A DNA stretch of 23,535 nucleotides from a virus: the IMG/VR virus record IMGVR_UViG_3300015024_000034, positions 1-23,535 of that record; one strand, written 5' to 3'. The notes beneath the pieces were generated by a model. That model was not told the origin of the DNA, searched no databases, and was given only the letters and a program-made list of their open reading frames with translations. Of the stretch, positions 14,547 through 20,678 are shown one piece after another. The translations under genes and the position numbers were made by a program. Each line of letters opens with the position of its first letter. Positions within the stretch are counted from its first letter, which is position 1.

Positions 14547-14595
14547 AAACTGATTTCTCCTTGGGGTTGTTACTACTGCCCACGAGAATAAGACG

Positions 14596-14661
14596 ACGCG
14601 GGGTCCGGCGCAAACCAGACGACCCCGCGTTTATCTCACTTCCGGGAGGCGCGTCCCGGAA
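14596..14661 (-). terminator. Double hairpin after the major capsid gene
   Basis: Two perfect inverted repeats lie directly after the capsid stop. The first is TTCCGGGA/TCCCGGAA (arms 14654..14661 and 14640..14647, loop 6). The second is ACGCGGGGTC/GACCCCGCGT (arms 14621..14630 and 14596..14605, loop 15, with possible further pairing inside). The U content after the second is moderate (GTCTTATTCT), so it is either a weak intrinsic terminator or an RNA-stabilising structure that raises capsid mRNA over downstream genes. Confidence 0.7.
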
Positions 14662-14671
14662 AGTTCAGCTT

Positions 14672-15613
14672 TTAGATTCCGTCGCCGCGAGCAATCGAAA
14701 GTGGGTAATAGATAATGACCCCACCGATGCGCGAGTGACAGGCAATCTCGAACTCAAGGCCCCGTTCCTGAACCGGGAGCTGCTCGAAATCTTGCGGGAT
14801 CTCAAGCGTCAGCGCGTCCGGGTCGCGACGGTAAGCGAGCATCGCGTTCGTTCCGCTCATGCCGACGCCCTTCATCTCGTTAAGCCAGGTGACTTCCTTG
14901 ATGAACGGGTTGTTTTTCTTGAAGTAATCAAGAATCGTCGTGTCGCTGTTCGCCGAACGAGCGGTCGAACTGATGAGCGTATACTGCTCAAGTGGGAGGA
15001 GAACGGTATCAGCCGTCTCGACGCCCTTGGTGAGATTGAACGGAGTGTTAGACACTTGGTTCATATCGGCAAGGATTTGGTCCGGGGTTTTGTTAACCCA
15101 GAGAGTCGAGTTCACCGCACCGTTTTGATTGCCGTTAGCGGCGACCGAAACGACGGTGATGTTCGGGTTAGAAAGAAACCCGCCGAGGCCGTGATCAGCA
15201 TCGCCGAAAAACGCGATGGTGTTCTCGAGCTGCATGATCGCTTTCTTAGCGTGGTTCGCCTTACGTTGTTCGAGAGGCTTGCCCACCATCTTCGCAGCGC
15301 GGATTTCTTGCAGGTTATACCCGTAAGAAGCGCCGAGCGAGCGGACAGGGCTAGTGAACTGACGCCCCTTGATGTCCGAACGAGGAAGGTCGTTAGCGTA
15401 GTTTGAGATCAGCTTCGCGACGCCGAGGCCGTCGTATTGGCTGTAAGTGATCGACTCAGCCCCAGGACCGGCGTCGTAGGAAACCGGGATAAGGGAACGG
15501 GCCTTCAGCTCGGCATACTTAACGTCATAAGAACGGGACTTGATCTGCTCGAGTTCACGGGCGAAAAAGATCGTCTCGCCGGAGTCGAGTTTATGTTTCT
15601 TTTCAATGCTCAT
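14672..15613 (-). CDS. Major capsid protein (DUF2184)
   Basis: This 313-residue protein is a DUF2184-type HK97-fold capsid protein. Typical features are SRSYDVKYAELKARSLIPVS, DIKGRQFTSPVRSLGASYGYNLQEIRAA, KANHAKKAIMQLENTIAFFGD and the C-terminal LPVQERGLEFEIACHSRIGGVIIYYP (P-domain and spine elements of this family). It is preceded by the cement-like and protease genes and has a good ribosome site (GAGAGGAAA). There is no separate N-terminal scaffold region, in agreement with a scaffold encoded in the protease gene. It is followed by a double hairpin. Confidence 0.94.
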   Translation of the reverse strand: MSIEKKHKLDSGETIFFARELEQIKSRSYDVKYAELKARSLIPVSYDAGPGAESITYSQYDGLGVAKLISNYANDLPRSDIKGRQFTSPVRSLGASYGYNLQEIRAAKMVGKPLEQRKANHAKKAIMQLENTIAFFGDADHGLGGFLSNPNITVVSVAANGNQNGAVNSTLWVNKTPDQILADMNQVSNTPFNLTKGVETADTVLLPLEQYTLISSTARSANSDTTILDYFKKNNPFIKEVTWLNEMKGVGMSGTNAMLAYRRDPDALTLEIPQDFEQLPVQERGLEFEIACHSRIGGVIIYYPLSIARGDGI

Positions 15614-16859: not shown

Positions 16860-17441
16860 TTTAGGACTCTCCTTCGTTTTTTCCGTTTCCGTTATCATTT
16901 CGCCCTCGTCGGCATCGAGACGCAGCTTTACTTCCGGGCCAGCTCGCCCACGGGGGACAATCGCCAAATGATTATAGACGATGTTCCGTTGAATCACGTC
17001 GTATGCCTCGCCCTCGTAGATCCCAGGCGAAACTTCGTGGTCACAGGTATAGCCGCAGGATACTTCCTGCATTCCGTTTTCGGCTTGATCCATGGTGCCC
17101 TGATCAAAAACCGTTACATAGACCTGAACAAACTTTTCATCTACGCGCTCTACAATATCGCCAGTAAAGCCGATGGTGTAAGCCTTCGCGTTCTTAGGAT
17201 CTAAAAAGCCTGGCTTTGGATGAAGGTTCGTTACAGGCACGTTAGCAAGCGTCGCCATGGAGGCGGCGTTAAAGACTTCTTCCGCCGGGCGATACTCGCT
17301 GATAACTTTCCCGTCACCCGTGAGGTACTTAAATACGCCGGTACGGGTAGCGAACGCGGGAGCGCGAAGAAACCCTTGCTGAGTCTTTTCCGCTTTCCGT
17401 AGCTCCGTCCTATCGATCCGTCGAAGGTTCTTAGTCGTCAT
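16161..17441 (-). CDS. DUF2213 prohead protease fused to scaffold
   Basis: The N-terminal 175 residues of this 426-residue protein are a DUF2213 domain. They include GFLRAPAFATRTGVFKYL, ASMATLANVPVTNLHP, MQEVSCGYTCDHE and VYNHLAIVPRGRAGPEV. By analogy with HK97-type prohead proteases, His74 (NLHP) and Ser128 (EVSCGY) are the best candidates for the catalytic pair; this is inferred. Residues about 195 to 426 are hydrophilic and coiled-coil-like, typical of internal scaffold. The protein should act inside the prohead and then cleave itself and other head proteins. It is separated by 39 bases from the head morphogenesis gene. Confidence 0.88.
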   Translation of the reverse strand: MTTKNLRRIDRTELRKAEKTQQGFLRAPAFATRTGVFKYLTGDGKVISEYRPAEEVFNAASMATLANVPVTNLHPKPGFLDPKNAKAYTIGFTGDIVERVDEKFVQVYVTVFDQGTMDQAENGMQEVSCGYTCDHEVSPGIYEGEAYDVIQRNIVYNHLAIVPRGRAGPEVKLRLDADEGEMITETEKTKESPKMGMIKIKDKEYDASPELMEAHESNMKDMSEQMDAMTKQLDAFKAAKPAEGSAEEEKSESPEVEKKEKDAADPENKETLESVKKEKDAAQAKADSLESEITKLRLSQSELYDAKNLHAAVTARMRVLSVASRKLPSDTKLDEMTDMDIKKEIIKADSPEKNLAGKSDEYLNARYDHIEESLDKVISDRRGMGSQIVNTRKDSANDKPDSEAARLKMMEESKNAYKRPDSSQKK

Positions 17442-17480
17442 CGTTCCTTAATAATCTGCTTATTGAATTAAATTCACAAA

Positions 17481-19199
17481 TCAGCCGCCCGAATCGAAGA
17501 TGTCATCTAGGACGGGCTCGGCCCAGCACCGGCAGTTGCTTACGAGTTGGTTATTCGCTAGATAGACACCAGTTTCCGTCTCGAAATTATAAACGAACCC
17601 CTCGTAGGCATCATTTTTATGGCTCTTCACGCGAACCGATTTCAAAAAGGCCAAGTTCCCTGGAATAAAATACAACTCGACCCCAAAGAGGTCGCCACGG
17701 CGTACGAGCTCGGAGAGAGCGAGAACGCCATCGCTAAACGTCTTAGAGTCAATCGCACTACCATTCGAAATCGTCTGCTCGAAGCGGGTGTTAAAATCAG
17801 AGGTCACTCTGAAGCGGAAAAGTTTAAGTGGTCGCGTATGAACAAGAGGCAGCGCGCGCTCCAAGTCGCCCCCGCTCACCGAGCCTCCACCGGACGTAAG
17901 CGCCTCGATAGCGAAGCGTTCAAAATTGCCAGGACCAAACAGGGCACCCGATGCTACGTCGGAAAGTTCGAGAAAGAGCTTCAGGATTTTATCGAAGGAA
18001 ACGGAATCAGGTGTAATCCCCAAGCCGTAGTGGGCCCTTACAGTATTGACCTCTTGTGTAGAACCGTCGCCGTGGAATTGCTCATTGATGCCTGCGACCC
18101 TTTGAGCCGTCCCAACGACCGAAAAAAGATCGAACATCTTCTCAGCAGTGGTTACAAGGTTCTCTACTTTTGCGCCCGACGCGTTTCCGACATTAACGGA
18201 TTGGCTCTCGAACAACTCGTCGCCGATCTGCAAGTCCTTCAGAAACTTCCACCCGGCCTTGGTGAGTACAGGATGATTAGGAGTTCCAGTCACTATCCGG
18301 GAGGATTCCGTACCGATCGACACGACCTGGCCGGTGTACTTGCGGCGAAATGCCGAAATACCAGAGCTTAGAAGCTGAATTTCGGTTTCAGGTAGAAAGC
18401 ACATAATGTCTTCGCCGGGTGAGCCGGTATCCATCGGCGGGTCTTCCCATTCGAACTTCTTTCCCTCTTTTTCCGCGTGTGAATCTCTGACCCGATCATC
18501 GAGCGAGGTTCGCCACACGTATTCGGTAACTCCAAGGTTCGTCTGTCTCTCTTCGGTCAATTGCCCGTTAAGTTTATTAACTTGATCGCGTGCGATTCGT
18601 TCCGCGTTCCATTCGGACGTTCCGTAACTCTCTTCTAGGTCCGCCGCGATCTCTTCCCATCTTAACCCATCGGTAAAACCGTCGAATACTTTCGACTGAA
18701 CGTCGTTAAGGTAACGCTCCGGGATCGTTTTAATGAGCCTAACATTATCGAAGGAAAAGGCTCTAATCCGGTCCTCTAGCTTCGAGTCGTCGATGAATAC
18801 GTCTACGCCGAGAACACTAGCGATCTGGCTAGTAAGGTTTTCTTTATTCAGTCCGGCAACTTCGAGCCCGATTCCGCTCGCGATGTTATCGAGTTCTTTG
18901 TCCGTGTACGTCTTATAAAAAAAAGCGCGGATCGATTCGAAGTCCCCGAAGAGATCGCCCATTAAGTCGTCATTTTTTGCCCGGTGAAAGAACTTCGGAG
19001 CCTGAGTACTGTAGTGTGCGAGTTTTGATACAAGTCTTTCGTCGACGCGGGCCTTTAGGAACCGAAGCATTACTAGTAGTTTTCTTAGGTACTGGCGCTC
19101 TAAACCTTTAAAAGATTTCGGGCGCGGTGGTCTGCGAAGCCTAGCGGGCCGCCCGCCGTTTCTCCGAACAAGGTTCTTAAGCGACACTGCGGGATTCAT
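17481..19199 (-). CDS. Phage head morphogenesis (SPP1 gp7 / Mu F-like) protein interrupted by an intein
   Basis: The precursor is 572 residues: N-extein 1 to 266, intein 267 to 555, C-extein 556 to 572. The joined extein would be 283 residues. It is basic at the start, helical in the middle (SEWNAERIARDQVNKLNGQLTEERQ, VTEYVWRTSLDDRVRDSHAEKEGKKFEW), and has the family's end motif PGEDIM joined to CRCWAEPVLDD. This minor head protein sits inside or at the portal of the capsid and is needed for assembly. The ATG at 19199 abuts the portal stop (TAG then ATG). The intein must be removed to restore the conserved PGED-x-x-CRC motif. Confidence 0.9.
   Translation of the reverse strand: MNPAVSLKNLVRRNGGRPARLRRPPRPKSFKGLERQYLRKLLVMLRFLKARVDERLVSKLAHYSTQAPKFFHRAKNDDLMGDLFGDFESIRAFFYKTYTDKELDNIASGIGLEVAGLNKENLTSQIASVLGVDVFIDDSKLEDRIRAFSFDNVRLIKTIPERYLNDVQSKVFDGFTDGLRWEEIAADLEESYGTSEWNAERIARDQVNKLNGQLTEERQTNLGVTEYVWRTSLDDRVRDSHAEKEGKKFEWEDPPMDTGSPGEDIMCFLPETEIQLLSSGISAFRRKYTGQVVSIGTESSRIVTGTPNHPVLTKAGWKFLKDLQIGDELFESQSVNVGNASGAKVENLVTTAEKMFDLFSVVGTAQRVAGINEQFHGDGSTQEVNTVRAHYGLGITPDSVSFDKILKLFLELSDVASGALFGPGNFERFAIEALTSGGGSVSGGDLERALPLVHTRPLKLFRFRVTSDFNTRFEQTISNGSAIDSKTFSDGVLALSELVRRGDLFGVELYFIPGNLAFLKSVRVKSHKNDAYEGFVYNFETETGVYLANNQLVSNCRCWAEPVLDDIFDSGG
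17535..18401 (-). mobile_element. Intein (Hint domain) in the head morphogenesis gene
   Basis: The 289-residue intein starts at Cys267 (CFLPETEIQLL, block A) and has the block B motif TPNHPVLTKAGW (T306, H309), followed by KFLKDLQIGDEL. The C-terminal blocks F and G are FVYNFETETGVYLANNQLVSN with terminal Asn555 and Cys556 as the first C-extein residue. All nucleophiles for cis-splicing are present. The penultimate residue is Ser instead of the usual His. The roughly 180-residue linker between the splicing halves contains no LAGLIDADG or HNH motif on the sense strand. Instead it overlaps a nuclease gene on the other strand. Splicing is predicted but not shown. Confidence 0.93.
17619..18371 (+). 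CDS. HTH plus Vsr/EDxHD-like homing endonuclease, antisense inside the intein
   Basis: This 250-residue protein is the only convincing plus-strand gene. Residues 21 to 66 form an HTH-like specificity domain (VATAYELGESENAIAKRLRV, TTIRNRLLEAGVKIRGHSEA), as seen ahead of free-standing homing nucleases. Residues 117 to 186 resemble the Vsr-like / EDxHD fold: E118 or E120 in FEKELQDFIEGNGI, D144 in GPYSIDLL, E153 in TVAVE, D167 in NDRKKIEHLLSSGYKVLYF. The usual His of HD is Asn166. The last 55 residues overlap the splicing domain and are probably not conserved. Codons are in exact opposite register to the intein. The ATG at 17619 has only a weak GTAGG site 10 bases upstream. Function is inferred. 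Confidence 0.85.
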   Translation: MALHANRFQKGQVPWNKIQLDPKEVATAYELGESENAIAKRLRVNRTTIRNRLLEAGVKIRGHSEAEKFKWSRMNKRQRALQVAPAHRASTGRKRLDSEAFKIARTKQGTRCYVGKFEKELQDFIEGNGIRCNPQAVVGPYSIDLLCRTVAVELLIDACDPLSRPNDRKKIEHLLSSGYKVLYFCARRVSDINGLALEQLVADLQVLQKLPPGLGEYRMIRSSSHYPGGFRTDRHDLAGVLAAKCRNTRA

Positions 19200-20678
19200 C
19201 TATGCTTTCGCGTCCGTGCGCGAAACGTAACCAGGCTTCGGGGTCTGTACGAACTTCTCGTTCTGCTCCTCTGCCGTACTTACGGGAGCCGGGTCAGGAT
19301 CTTCGGTTGATCCTTTAGGCGTCGGGTCTTCGGTCGTTGCCTTCGAAACACCCGACTCGGAAGCCGGGCTTGGGATTTTCCGTCTAACATCTAAATCGAT
19401 ATCCGTTTCGAGCGAGAACTTGTCCCCTCCGAAGCGAGAGTGAGCGATCTCGTCAGGGTCCACGACCCCGTTTTGAATATAAATCTGGTCCTTCTGAGCG
19501 ACGACGAGCTGCATGTCCGCTTTTTCTTTATCGCTCATCTGCCAGAGCGGAACGAAATCAAACGTGTAAGCGTCCGGGACTTCGCCTTTAGTCGGGCCGT
19601 TCTTAGAGAGTAGGATGTACCGGATCAGCTTTTCCATGACCGGACGTAAAACCAGCTTCTGTTGATTCTTAACGTGATCATACCAGCCGCGTTCTTCGCT
19701 ATCGCCGGTCGCGCCTAAGCCAGACGGTGACTCGCCTAAGATCTTTGTGTGAGGCATCCCGGATGCGACGACTAATCTTGCGCCCGCGTCTTTAAGGAGA
19801 TCCGAAACACCGCCTAGGGATTTAGAGACCTGGCTATACTGCTCGTCGCTATCGAGGACGATCGATTTAATGACCGACTTCGAATAGTTCGCGAGCTCAA
19901 GCCGAGTGCGGACGATGTCTTCTTTTCCCGAGGAAATGAGTTCGGCCAGGTTCTTGATCTGGAACACGCCGACAGAGAAGTCCTGTAGCGCCGACACGGC
20001 CGCGTCGTTTGCCGAGTTATAATTCCGGATCGCGTTTAGGGTGCGAGAAAAAACGGAATCCCCCCACCACTGGTTCTCGATAAGTAACCGGCGCGGAAGC
20101 ATCGATCCGTCGAACCTAAGTAAGCGAGAATGGTGAATGTAGCGCTCAACGAAGTCGGTCGGTTGGGAAGTTTGGAGGCGATAAATCTCGGGCATGCCGA
20201 AGTATGGTGAATCGAGATTCGAGTTAATCTGATACGGGACGAGCTCATAGCGTGAGAGAACGGTCAGGGACTTAACGTCCATGATTTTTGTCTCATCGAC
20301 CGGCTCCTGAGGATCTAGCCCGTCGTCGATCGTAACGTAAACGCCAGCGCCACCGTAGAGACGACCCCACTTCCAGCCGGTCTCGATCCGAGTGCGGGCG
20401 AGGAGCGAGTCTAACTTAGCGAGAGTCGCGCTCTCCGCGTCCTGATCCGATAACTTTAACTCAATCCATTCGCGGAGTGCGTCCTCGGGGAGAAGGTCTA
20501 CAATTTTAGCCGCCAGGTCGTCGGCTGCGTAGAGGGTCTCGGCCTCGACTTCGGACAGGCGGGTTAACTCCCAGTCATTGTTTACGCGCTTGTCCCGGTC
20601 GCGAACACCGACGCCGCTTAAAAGATTAAACCAACCGTCGAGTCGTTCTTTCGTAACCCTAGCAAACCCTTTAGCCAT
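19200..20678 (-). CDS. Portal protein (DUF1073)
   Basis: The frame is open from 20714 (TTG). The ATG at 20678 is preferred, because the sequence before it lies in an inverted repeat and MAKGFARVTKERLDGWFNLLSGVGVRDRDK is the usual family start. The protein is 492 residues. Typical DUF1073 features are LYAADDLAAKIVDLLPEDALREWIEL, WGRLYGGAGVYVTIDDG, VERYIHHSRLLRFDGSMLP, WWGDSVFSRTLNAIRNYN and LKDAGARLVVASGMPHTKILGESPSGLGATGD. The C-terminal 70 residues are Pro/Thr/Asp-rich and probably disordered. It forms the dodecameric vertex ring for DNA packaging. The terminase that would act with it is not in the window. Confidence 0.9.
   Translation of the reverse strand: MAKGFARVTKERLDGWFNLLSGVGVRDRDKRVNNDWELTRLSEVEAETLYAADDLAAKIVDLLPEDALREWIELKLSDQDAESATLAKLDSLLARTRIETGWKWGRLYGGAGVYVTIDDGLDPQEPVDETKIMDVKSLTVLSRYELVPYQINSNLDSPYFGMPEIYRLQTSQPTDFVERYIHHSRLLRFDGSMLPRRLLIENQWWGDSVFSRTLNAIRNYNSANDAAVSALQDFSVGVFQIKNLAELISSGKEDIVRTRLELANYSKSVIKSIVLDSDEQYSQVSKSLGGVSDLLKDAGARLVVASGMPHTKILGESPSGLGATGDSEERGWYDHVKNQQKLVLRPVMEKLIRYILLSKNGPTKGEVPDAYTFDFVPLWQMSDKEKADMQLVVAQKDQIYIQNGVVDPDEIAHSRFGGDKFSLETDIDLDVRRKIPSPASESGVSKATTEDPTPKGSTEDPDPAPVSTAEEQNEKFVQTPKPGYVSRTDAKA

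Follow-up and report, generated by a model that had tools for sequence, protein, structure and literature searches.

In the usual description of inteins, a single polypeptide contains the nuclease as a domain between its two splicing halves. In the fractured genes that Dassa et al. are said to have reported in 2009, split inteins surround a gene for a Vsr-like endonuclease. Here we analysed a 23,535-nt stretch of viral DNA, the IMG/VR virus record IMGVR_UViG_3300015024_000034 (positions 1 to 23,535; hereafter the window), in which a head morphogenesis gene contains a putative intein and the opposite strand of the same segment carries a candidate homing endonuclease gene of the EDxHD (Vsr-like) type. 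We interpret the locus as a mobile intein whose homing endonuclease gene lies antisense, codon on codon, through most of the intein, and put the probability of this reading at about 0.86. Splicing, antisense transcription and expression, cleavage and homing are what we infer from sequence comparisons and structure models.

The locus has in common with conventional inteins carrying a fused LAGLIDADG or HNH nuclease the blocks A, B, F and G, the residue C1, the N|C junction and the mobility pattern. However, the nuclease of conventional inteins is fused in frame, whereas here it is a separate antisense gene and scans of the sense frame revealed no endonuclease domain. The fractured genes reportedly resemble our case in that phage inteins are tied to an EDxHD-type nuclease, but their nuclease is said to lie between split halves, while here the host open reading frame (ORF) and the intein are continuous and the nuclease overlaps the splicing halves. 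EDxHD homing endonucleases including I-Bth0305I (3r3p) have been reviewed (PMC3943268). I-Bth0305I is the nearest solved structure by both profile and fold and has the same E/D/E core and the same combination of DNA-binding modules with a nuclease domain; it was deposited as a mobile intron protein, whereas the gene described here is antisense to a protein-splicing element, so that a second protein frame must stay open. The ShiLan element, a hidden out-of-frame HNH in a phage methylase (PMC11855218), likewise combines an in-frame insertion into a phage gene with a nuclease read from an alternative frame of that insertion. The ShiLan nuclease is, however, encoded on the same strand in the third frame, belongs to the HNH type and comes with no detectable splicing domain or Shine-Dalgarno (SD) sequence, while in our locus the opposite strand is used and the splicing blocks are present. 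In the group I introns of Porphyra rDNA the endonuclease ORF is situated on the complementary strand (PMC2585584), and a homing endonuclease is thus also antisense to a self-splicing element, but the strand opposite the ORF there carries an rRNA gene intron and no second protein frame is shared, unlike the two protein frames seen here. No description of an antisense endonuclease inside an intein was found in the literature searched, with most subscription papers and bioRxiv preprints outside its coverage. On overlapping frames, PMC11855218 cites a preprint that deals with inteins of 'non-canonical architecture' in actinobacteriophages. As that preprint treats actinobacteriophage inteins and several members of the family studied here come from actinobacteriophages (Gordonia, Mycobacterium), an earlier description of antisense-nuclease inteins is a real possibility and their novelty is provisional.

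Regarding the sense strand, the 572-aa protein encoded at 17481-19199 (minus strand), next to the portal gene, matched Phage_Mu_F (7e-19), phageSPP1_gp7 (9e-19) and the PHROG for head morphogenesis (7e-65). A preliminary description had placed in it a complete intein with the residues C267, TPNH, N555 and C556. All of these residues are present, with the motif TPNHPVLT at 306-313 (TPNH at 306-309), and the limits fall exactly at 17535-18401, which confirms, on sequence grounds, a complete intein with predicted splicing activity in a MuF/SPP1 gp7-like gene. The protein matched the intein N-terminal model TIGR01445 at 3.7e-5 and Intein_splicing (PF14890) at 1.2e-5, the latter under Pfam's cut-off. 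After removal of the intein, the extein sequence reads ...GSPGEDIM|CRCWAEP... and aligns in a single piece over the junction with intein-free phage MuF proteins; the insertion point is the conserved CRC motif of MuF. In an alignment of 66 members (A8), C1, the block B His (His43) and the terminal Asn (Asn289) of the intein are invariant. The AlphaFold2 (AF2) model of the intein has two confident ends (residues 1-67 and 245-289) and a middle with mostly poor predicted local distance difference test (pLDDT) values. Per 10-residue block, pLDDT is about 86-98 in the N-terminal half, which forms HINT-like strands, and about 93-97 from residue 251 on in the C-terminal half. Foldseek matches this model best to inteins, with Mtu RecA at the top (probability 1.0, E about 1e-3).

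Other kinds of element were also considered for this segment. A conventional large intein with a fused in-frame endonuclease is ruled out, as scans of the sense protein against Pfam, NCBIfam and PHROGs recovered only head-protein and splicing-region matches and no known endonuclease domain, and the linker has mostly low pLDDT. The continuous 572-aa sense ORF, together with 195 homologues that are stop-free across the nuclease domain, rules out a split intein or fractured gene. An RNA intron (group I with an antisense homing endonuclease gene) is ruled out by the lack of any Rfam match at E<=1 within 16900-19400.

The opposite strand is open from 17562 to 18371 (269 codons), and its first ATG, at 17619, gives a protein of 250 aa. 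The preliminary description had read this frame as a 250-codon gene with a helix-turn-helix (HTH) region and a Vsr/EDxHD-like nuclease domain, and the profile and structure searches bear it out. The protein matched DUF559 at 7.7e-5, over the curated cut-off, and REase_MTES_1575 and an HTH family, both under the cut-off. Moreover, a profile of 19 family members recovered I-Bth0305I (3r3p, 'Mobile intron protein') at 1.4e-8 and the Vsr-like 3hrl at 9.5e-7, and individual members matched HTH families, REase_MTES_1575 (best 5.8e-9), DUF559 and Vsr. Residues Y141, D144 and E153 are invariant in the 19-member alignment. A scan of IMG/VR with the window nuclease as a single protein gave no match. The AF2 model, calculated from an alignment of 76 sequences (mean pLDDT 86, predicted template modelling score 0.71), shows an N-terminal three-helix HTH and a C-terminal nuclease fold, and its best PDB matches in Foldseek are I-Bth0305I (3r3p, E 2.9e-3) and 3hrl (E 1e-2), with probability 1.0. 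Homology and fold together confirm that the antisense ORF encodes an HTH and Vsr/EDxHD-like nuclease, for which DNA cleavage is predicted.

A tblastn search of phage records resulted in 102 records at E<=0.01, and in all of the first nine examined the match lies inside the portal-adjacent gene, on the opposite strand. Three IMG/VR scans recovered 317, 238 and 72 relatives in overlapping sets; 227 IMG/VR loci, 4 genome loci and the annotated loci gave 198 distinct nuclease-domain sequences. As the searches used only the nuclease, the sense frame was under no selection by sampling. The 19-member nuclease alignment was too divergent for pattern scans, and subfamily alignments were used instead. 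The exact reverse-complement frame is stop-free over the whole nuclease domain in 195 of the 198 homologues, while the other frames contain on average 16.5 and 8.3 stops (reverse-complement strand) or 6.7 and 15.6 stops (nuclease strand) and are never stop-free. In this register a sense stop corresponds to an antisense TTA, CTA or TCA codon; given the Leu/Ser usage of each locus, the nuclease frames of 160 loci should contain about 837 such codons, and none is present. As a negative control, the freestanding nucleases L016 and L129 carry 12 and 13 stops in the corresponding frame. D144 and E153 are conserved in all 197 homologues compared and E118 in 193 of them. The antisense frame is therefore not routinely broken in related inteins. 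Such breakage and a lack of nuclease similarity were the two outcomes that the preliminary description had named as refuting, and neither was observed. The N-splicing profile matched 194 of the 195 sense ORFs and the C-splicing profile 187 of them; an N|C junction occurs in 185 and a MuF extein in 159. The two splicing profiles were built from the seed alignment and hence share ancestry with it; the independent model PF14890 gave a match at E<=0.01 in 18 of another 20 sense ORFs, in several cases under Pfam's cut-off.

Some relatives deserve separate mention. In Salmonella phage PK1 (L012:2435-3244) the antisense frame is annotated as 'hypothetical protein' inside the head gene, and most other records have no annotation for it. 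The intein of Rhodococcus phage REQ3 (L018:2039-3817) seems to have Ala in place of the initial Cys (HPN|AVLEGS), and the HTH part is missing from its nuclease. In Mycobacterium phage Sejanus (L005:761-4072) the host gene codes for the capsid maturation protease, and the intein (WV|C ... HN|CTIDGK) is inserted at another place in it, upstream of the usual CRC position.

To see which frame constrains which part of the intein, we compared codon positions in 38 independent pairs, aligned by the sense protein, a choice biased against finding antisense constraint. In this register, position 1 of a sense codon coincides with position 3 of an antisense codon, and vice versa. Differences per codon at sense positions 1/2/3 were 0.325/0.264/0.521 in the exteins. 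In the intein they were 0.278/0.133/0.342 over the first 80 codons, 0.410/0.187/0.301 in the middle and 0.257/0.153/0.362 over the last 45 codons. In 37 of 38 pairs, antisense position 3 changes faster than sense position 3 across the intein middle; sense position 3 is the faster one in the exteins (36/38) and at the two splicing ends (31 of 36 and 30 of 35 pairs with a difference). As far as substitution patterns tell, these rates show that the antisense frame constrains the intein middle and the sense frame the splicing ends. The ordered part of the nuclease model stops at residue 221 and the sense TPNH lies opposite residues 219-222, so each protein's essential fold sits opposite the other's loose part. 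The preliminary description had assigned a mini-intein linker to one strand and a free nuclease to the other. Codon-position rates and both structure models agree with this division, but the two frames overlap beyond the linker as well. Dual-coding codons make up a median of 90 % of the intein, the nuclease frame stops a median of 6 codons past intein residue 1, and the usual start signal is inside block F.

The conserved sense strings FHGD and EVEIV are encoded by the reverse complements of the nuclease catalytic motifs VAVE and YNLDF, just as the conserved nuclease VIRG corresponds to the sense TPNHP. The simpler reading is that the conservation of FHGD and EVEIV is a shadow of the nuclease motifs, and a sense-strand role for these strings was set aside on this ground. 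The sense AF2 model is moderately confident in parts of residues 81-120, which could likewise stem from antisense conservation in the alignment.

The block F motif (H-V-Y-N-L) is recognisable in 134 homologues, and its codons are unusual. His is encoded by CAT in 115 and CAC in 19 cases, compared with 404 CAT and 675 CAC in the exteins (Fisher p 1e-27), and Leu by CTC in 110 of 129 compared with 24 % in the exteins (p 8e-47). Read antisense, the block gives an ATG with a GGAGG, GAGG or GGAG-like motif 9-13 bases upstream, and an SD-like motif is found in 127 of the 134. In most relatives, the predicted initiation site of the nuclease, with its SD sequence and ATG, lies antisense inside splicing block F. 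In the window copy CGAAA replaces GGAGG, GAA replaces ATG and the block F His is Phe535, while the catalytic triad (E118, D144, E153) and the HTH are intact. Expression of this copy is uncertain, as the usual start signal is lost. The features of the locus are listed in the table.

Table. Coordinates of the features of the intein locus in the window
Feature	Position	Strand	Basis
Intein-containing MuF / SPP1 gp7-like head morphogenesis (minor head) gene, 572 aa	17481..19199	-	Profile matches
Intein, 289 codons, C267 ... N555, +1 extein C556	17535..18401	-	TIGR01445, motifs, spliced-extein alignment
N-terminal splicing half, blocks A-B, TPNHPVLT, intein residues 1-67	18201..18401	-	AF2, Foldseek
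C-terminal splicing half, blocks F-G, intein residues 245-289	17535..17669	-	AF2
Sense-strand intein linker, mostly low-confidence fold	17670..18200	-	AF2 and codon-position rates (measured with cuts at N 80 / C 45 residues)
Antisense gene, 250-aa HTH and EDxHD/Vsr-like (PD-(D/E)XK) nuclease, candidate homing endonuclease	17619..18371	+	Homology, AF2, Foldseek
HTH region, nuclease residues 22-55	17682..17783	+	Matches to several HTH families in family members, AF2
Nuclease domain, residues 112-222; ordered fold stops where sense block B starts	17952..18284	+	Profile, AF2, Foldseek, conservation
Catalytic Glu118 (putative)	17970..17972	+	E in 193/197 homologues
Catalytic Asp144 (putative), Y-x-x-D motif	18048..18050	+	D in 197/197 homologues
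Catalytic Glu153 (putative), VAVE motif	18075..18077	+	E in 197/197 homologues
Usual SD/ATG site of relatives, antisense to block F, degenerate here	17582..17597	+	Window sequence and family pattern

Signs of mobility come from empty sites and from comparison of inteins with their exteins. The gene of Escherichia phage Snoke has 1860 bp and the intein-free gene of fEg-Eco19 has 1044 bp; the difference of 816 bp is exactly the length of the Snoke intein (272 codons), and the exteins are 98 % identical at the amino acid level. Between L106 and L107 the exteins diverge by 12.3 % and the inteins by 0.2 %, and between L001 and L177 by 3.5 % and 13.6 %, respectively. The empty sites and the intein/extein incongruence support mobility. 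Not all host genes are MuF genes. The annotated head morphogenesis gene of Virus Rctr197k (L020:616-1968) turned out to be a dCMP deaminase (PF00383, 5e-11) with an intein and an antisense nuclease, the host gene in L217 is terminase-like (PF04466, under the cut-off), and those in L210 and L231 resemble other enzymes by eye. Finally, in the FREESTANDING copies (L016:455-1348, L129:2384-3391 and L130:2297-3223) the nuclease is located outside an intein, just downstream of an intein-free MuF gene and convergent to it, and so neighbours the empty site. In the tree, L016/L129 and L130 branch apart, each inside intein-borne groups, with a support of 0.87-0.95 for L016 and weak support for L130. Given this branching, loss of the intein appears at least as likely as an ancestral freestanding state.

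The mechanism we propose is as follows. The capsid gene would be translated through the insert on the sense strand, and the two intein ends would fold into a HINT splicing domain, excise the intein and rejoin the MuF protein, with the intein middle serving as a permissive linker. In most relatives, antisense translation would start inside block F and yield an HTH-EDxHD nuclease as a free protein. If this nuclease acts as other homing endonucleases do, it would cleave MuF alleles that lack the intein, at the insertion site or close to it, and repair would copy the intein in. The DNA could be shared since the nuclease body lies over the linker and the nuclease tails over the splicing blocks.

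The antisense frame might be suspected to be a chance opening opposite a conserved intein, a mechanical shadow of the sense codons. Antisense ORFs easily arise in this register, as stretches of 160-244 open antisense codons occur elsewhere in the window, opposite other genes, and with the codon usage of the window the probability of 269 open codons is about 7e-4 per try. ORF length by itself is weak evidence for an antisense gene, and the case for the nuclease consequently rests on homology and comparison. A further example of how common long antisense ORFs are here is the 281-aa ORF at 14561-15406 (plus strand), opposite the gene at 14672-15613. Nuclease homology and fold, the antisense position-3 excess in 37 of 38 pairs and the embedded SD/ATG all argue against chance, to which we give practically no weight. 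The invariant catalytic residues together with the freestanding homologues L016 and L129, which lie opposite no gene, refute it. It is also very improbable that the insert is a non-splicing, tolerated in-frame insertion that merely hides a nuclease. Such hidden nucleases of the ShiLan type do occur in phage methylases without splicing domains (PMC11855218), but here the splicing motifs are complete with C1, His and Asn invariant, the model is HINT-like, sense position 3 is in excess at both intein ends and the insertion point belongs to the conserved CRC motif of MuF. The nuclease might instead serve the phage otherwise than in intein homing, through marker exclusion of rivals or control of late genes by antisense transcription. 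The freestanding relatives L016, L129 and L130 beside MuF genes without an intein indicate that the nuclease can exist without one. However, homing would account for the precise empty sites, the patchy distribution and the intein/extein incongruence, and several unrelated host genes have been invaded (dCMP deaminase, terminase-like gene), so that we consider a non-homing role unlikely.

Several observations weigh against interpreting the locus as a mobile intein with an antisense homing endonuclease. The Foldseek E-values of the nuclease are modest (2.9e-3) despite the probability of 1.0, and the G..WH that follows the second catalytic Glu in many members is missing from the window protein. 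In most pairs the intein/extein divergence ratio is 0.5-0.7, and a ratio below 1 is by itself not evidence of transfer, because dual coding slows change and only extremes and ratios above 1 are informative. The window copy has no canonical SD/ATG, and its next ATG (17619) is 24 nt downstream with a weak AGG upstream. No convincing antisense promoter was found, only one weak 9/12 match at 17563-17590 with an expectation of 0.3. A related concern is that the nuclease is real but the window copy, and perhaps some relatives too, is a decaying or silent remnant of homing, kept open mainly by the needs of the sense frame. The loss of the canonical SD and ATG and of the G..WH residues would fit this, as would the long branch of the window sequence. 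On the other hand, the window copy retains the HTH and all three catalytic residues, an in-frame ATG is available 24 nt downstream, the frame is intact over 269 codons with a confident model, and an open sense frame alone does not keep the antisense frame open. We regard a remnant as possible but doubtful.

If the interpretation as a mobile intein with an antisense homing endonuclease is right, the nuclease is a second gene on the opposite strand, and its expression can be uncoupled from capsid gene expression and splicing. About 195 relatives would then provide a large natural data set of near-complete protein-protein antisense overlap, with constraint divided between the strands. Such nucleases go without a name or annotation in many sequenced phages, common phages of Salmonella and Klebsiella among them. 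We see even odds that these loci represent a widespread undescribed class of inteins, with an antisense endonuclease in codon register over about 90 % of the intein, a ribosome-binding site and start in block F, several phage genes invaded, freestanding relatives and at least two origins with different EDxHD nucleases.

A second origin of the design is suggested by one example, L048 (= L254; 2414-5425 and 3659-4525), a single MuF gene with two inteins. In the first intein the antisense gene, again in the same codon register, codes for a zinc-finger EDxHD nuclease that belongs to another subfamily, and the codon-register sense frame has 0 stops compared with 18 and 17 in the other two frames. 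L255 and L256, relatives of this zinc-finger nuclease, have 10-14 stops in the corresponding frame. The comparison suggests that the antisense-nuclease intein arose independently here. In Camster (L262:1917-2705) a related zinc-finger EDxHD nuclease frame is located between pieces of a DNA methylase, where the opposite strand is annotated as 'hypothetical protein' and the codon-register sense frame contains 2 stops; the annotation of this stretch may be on the wrong strand.

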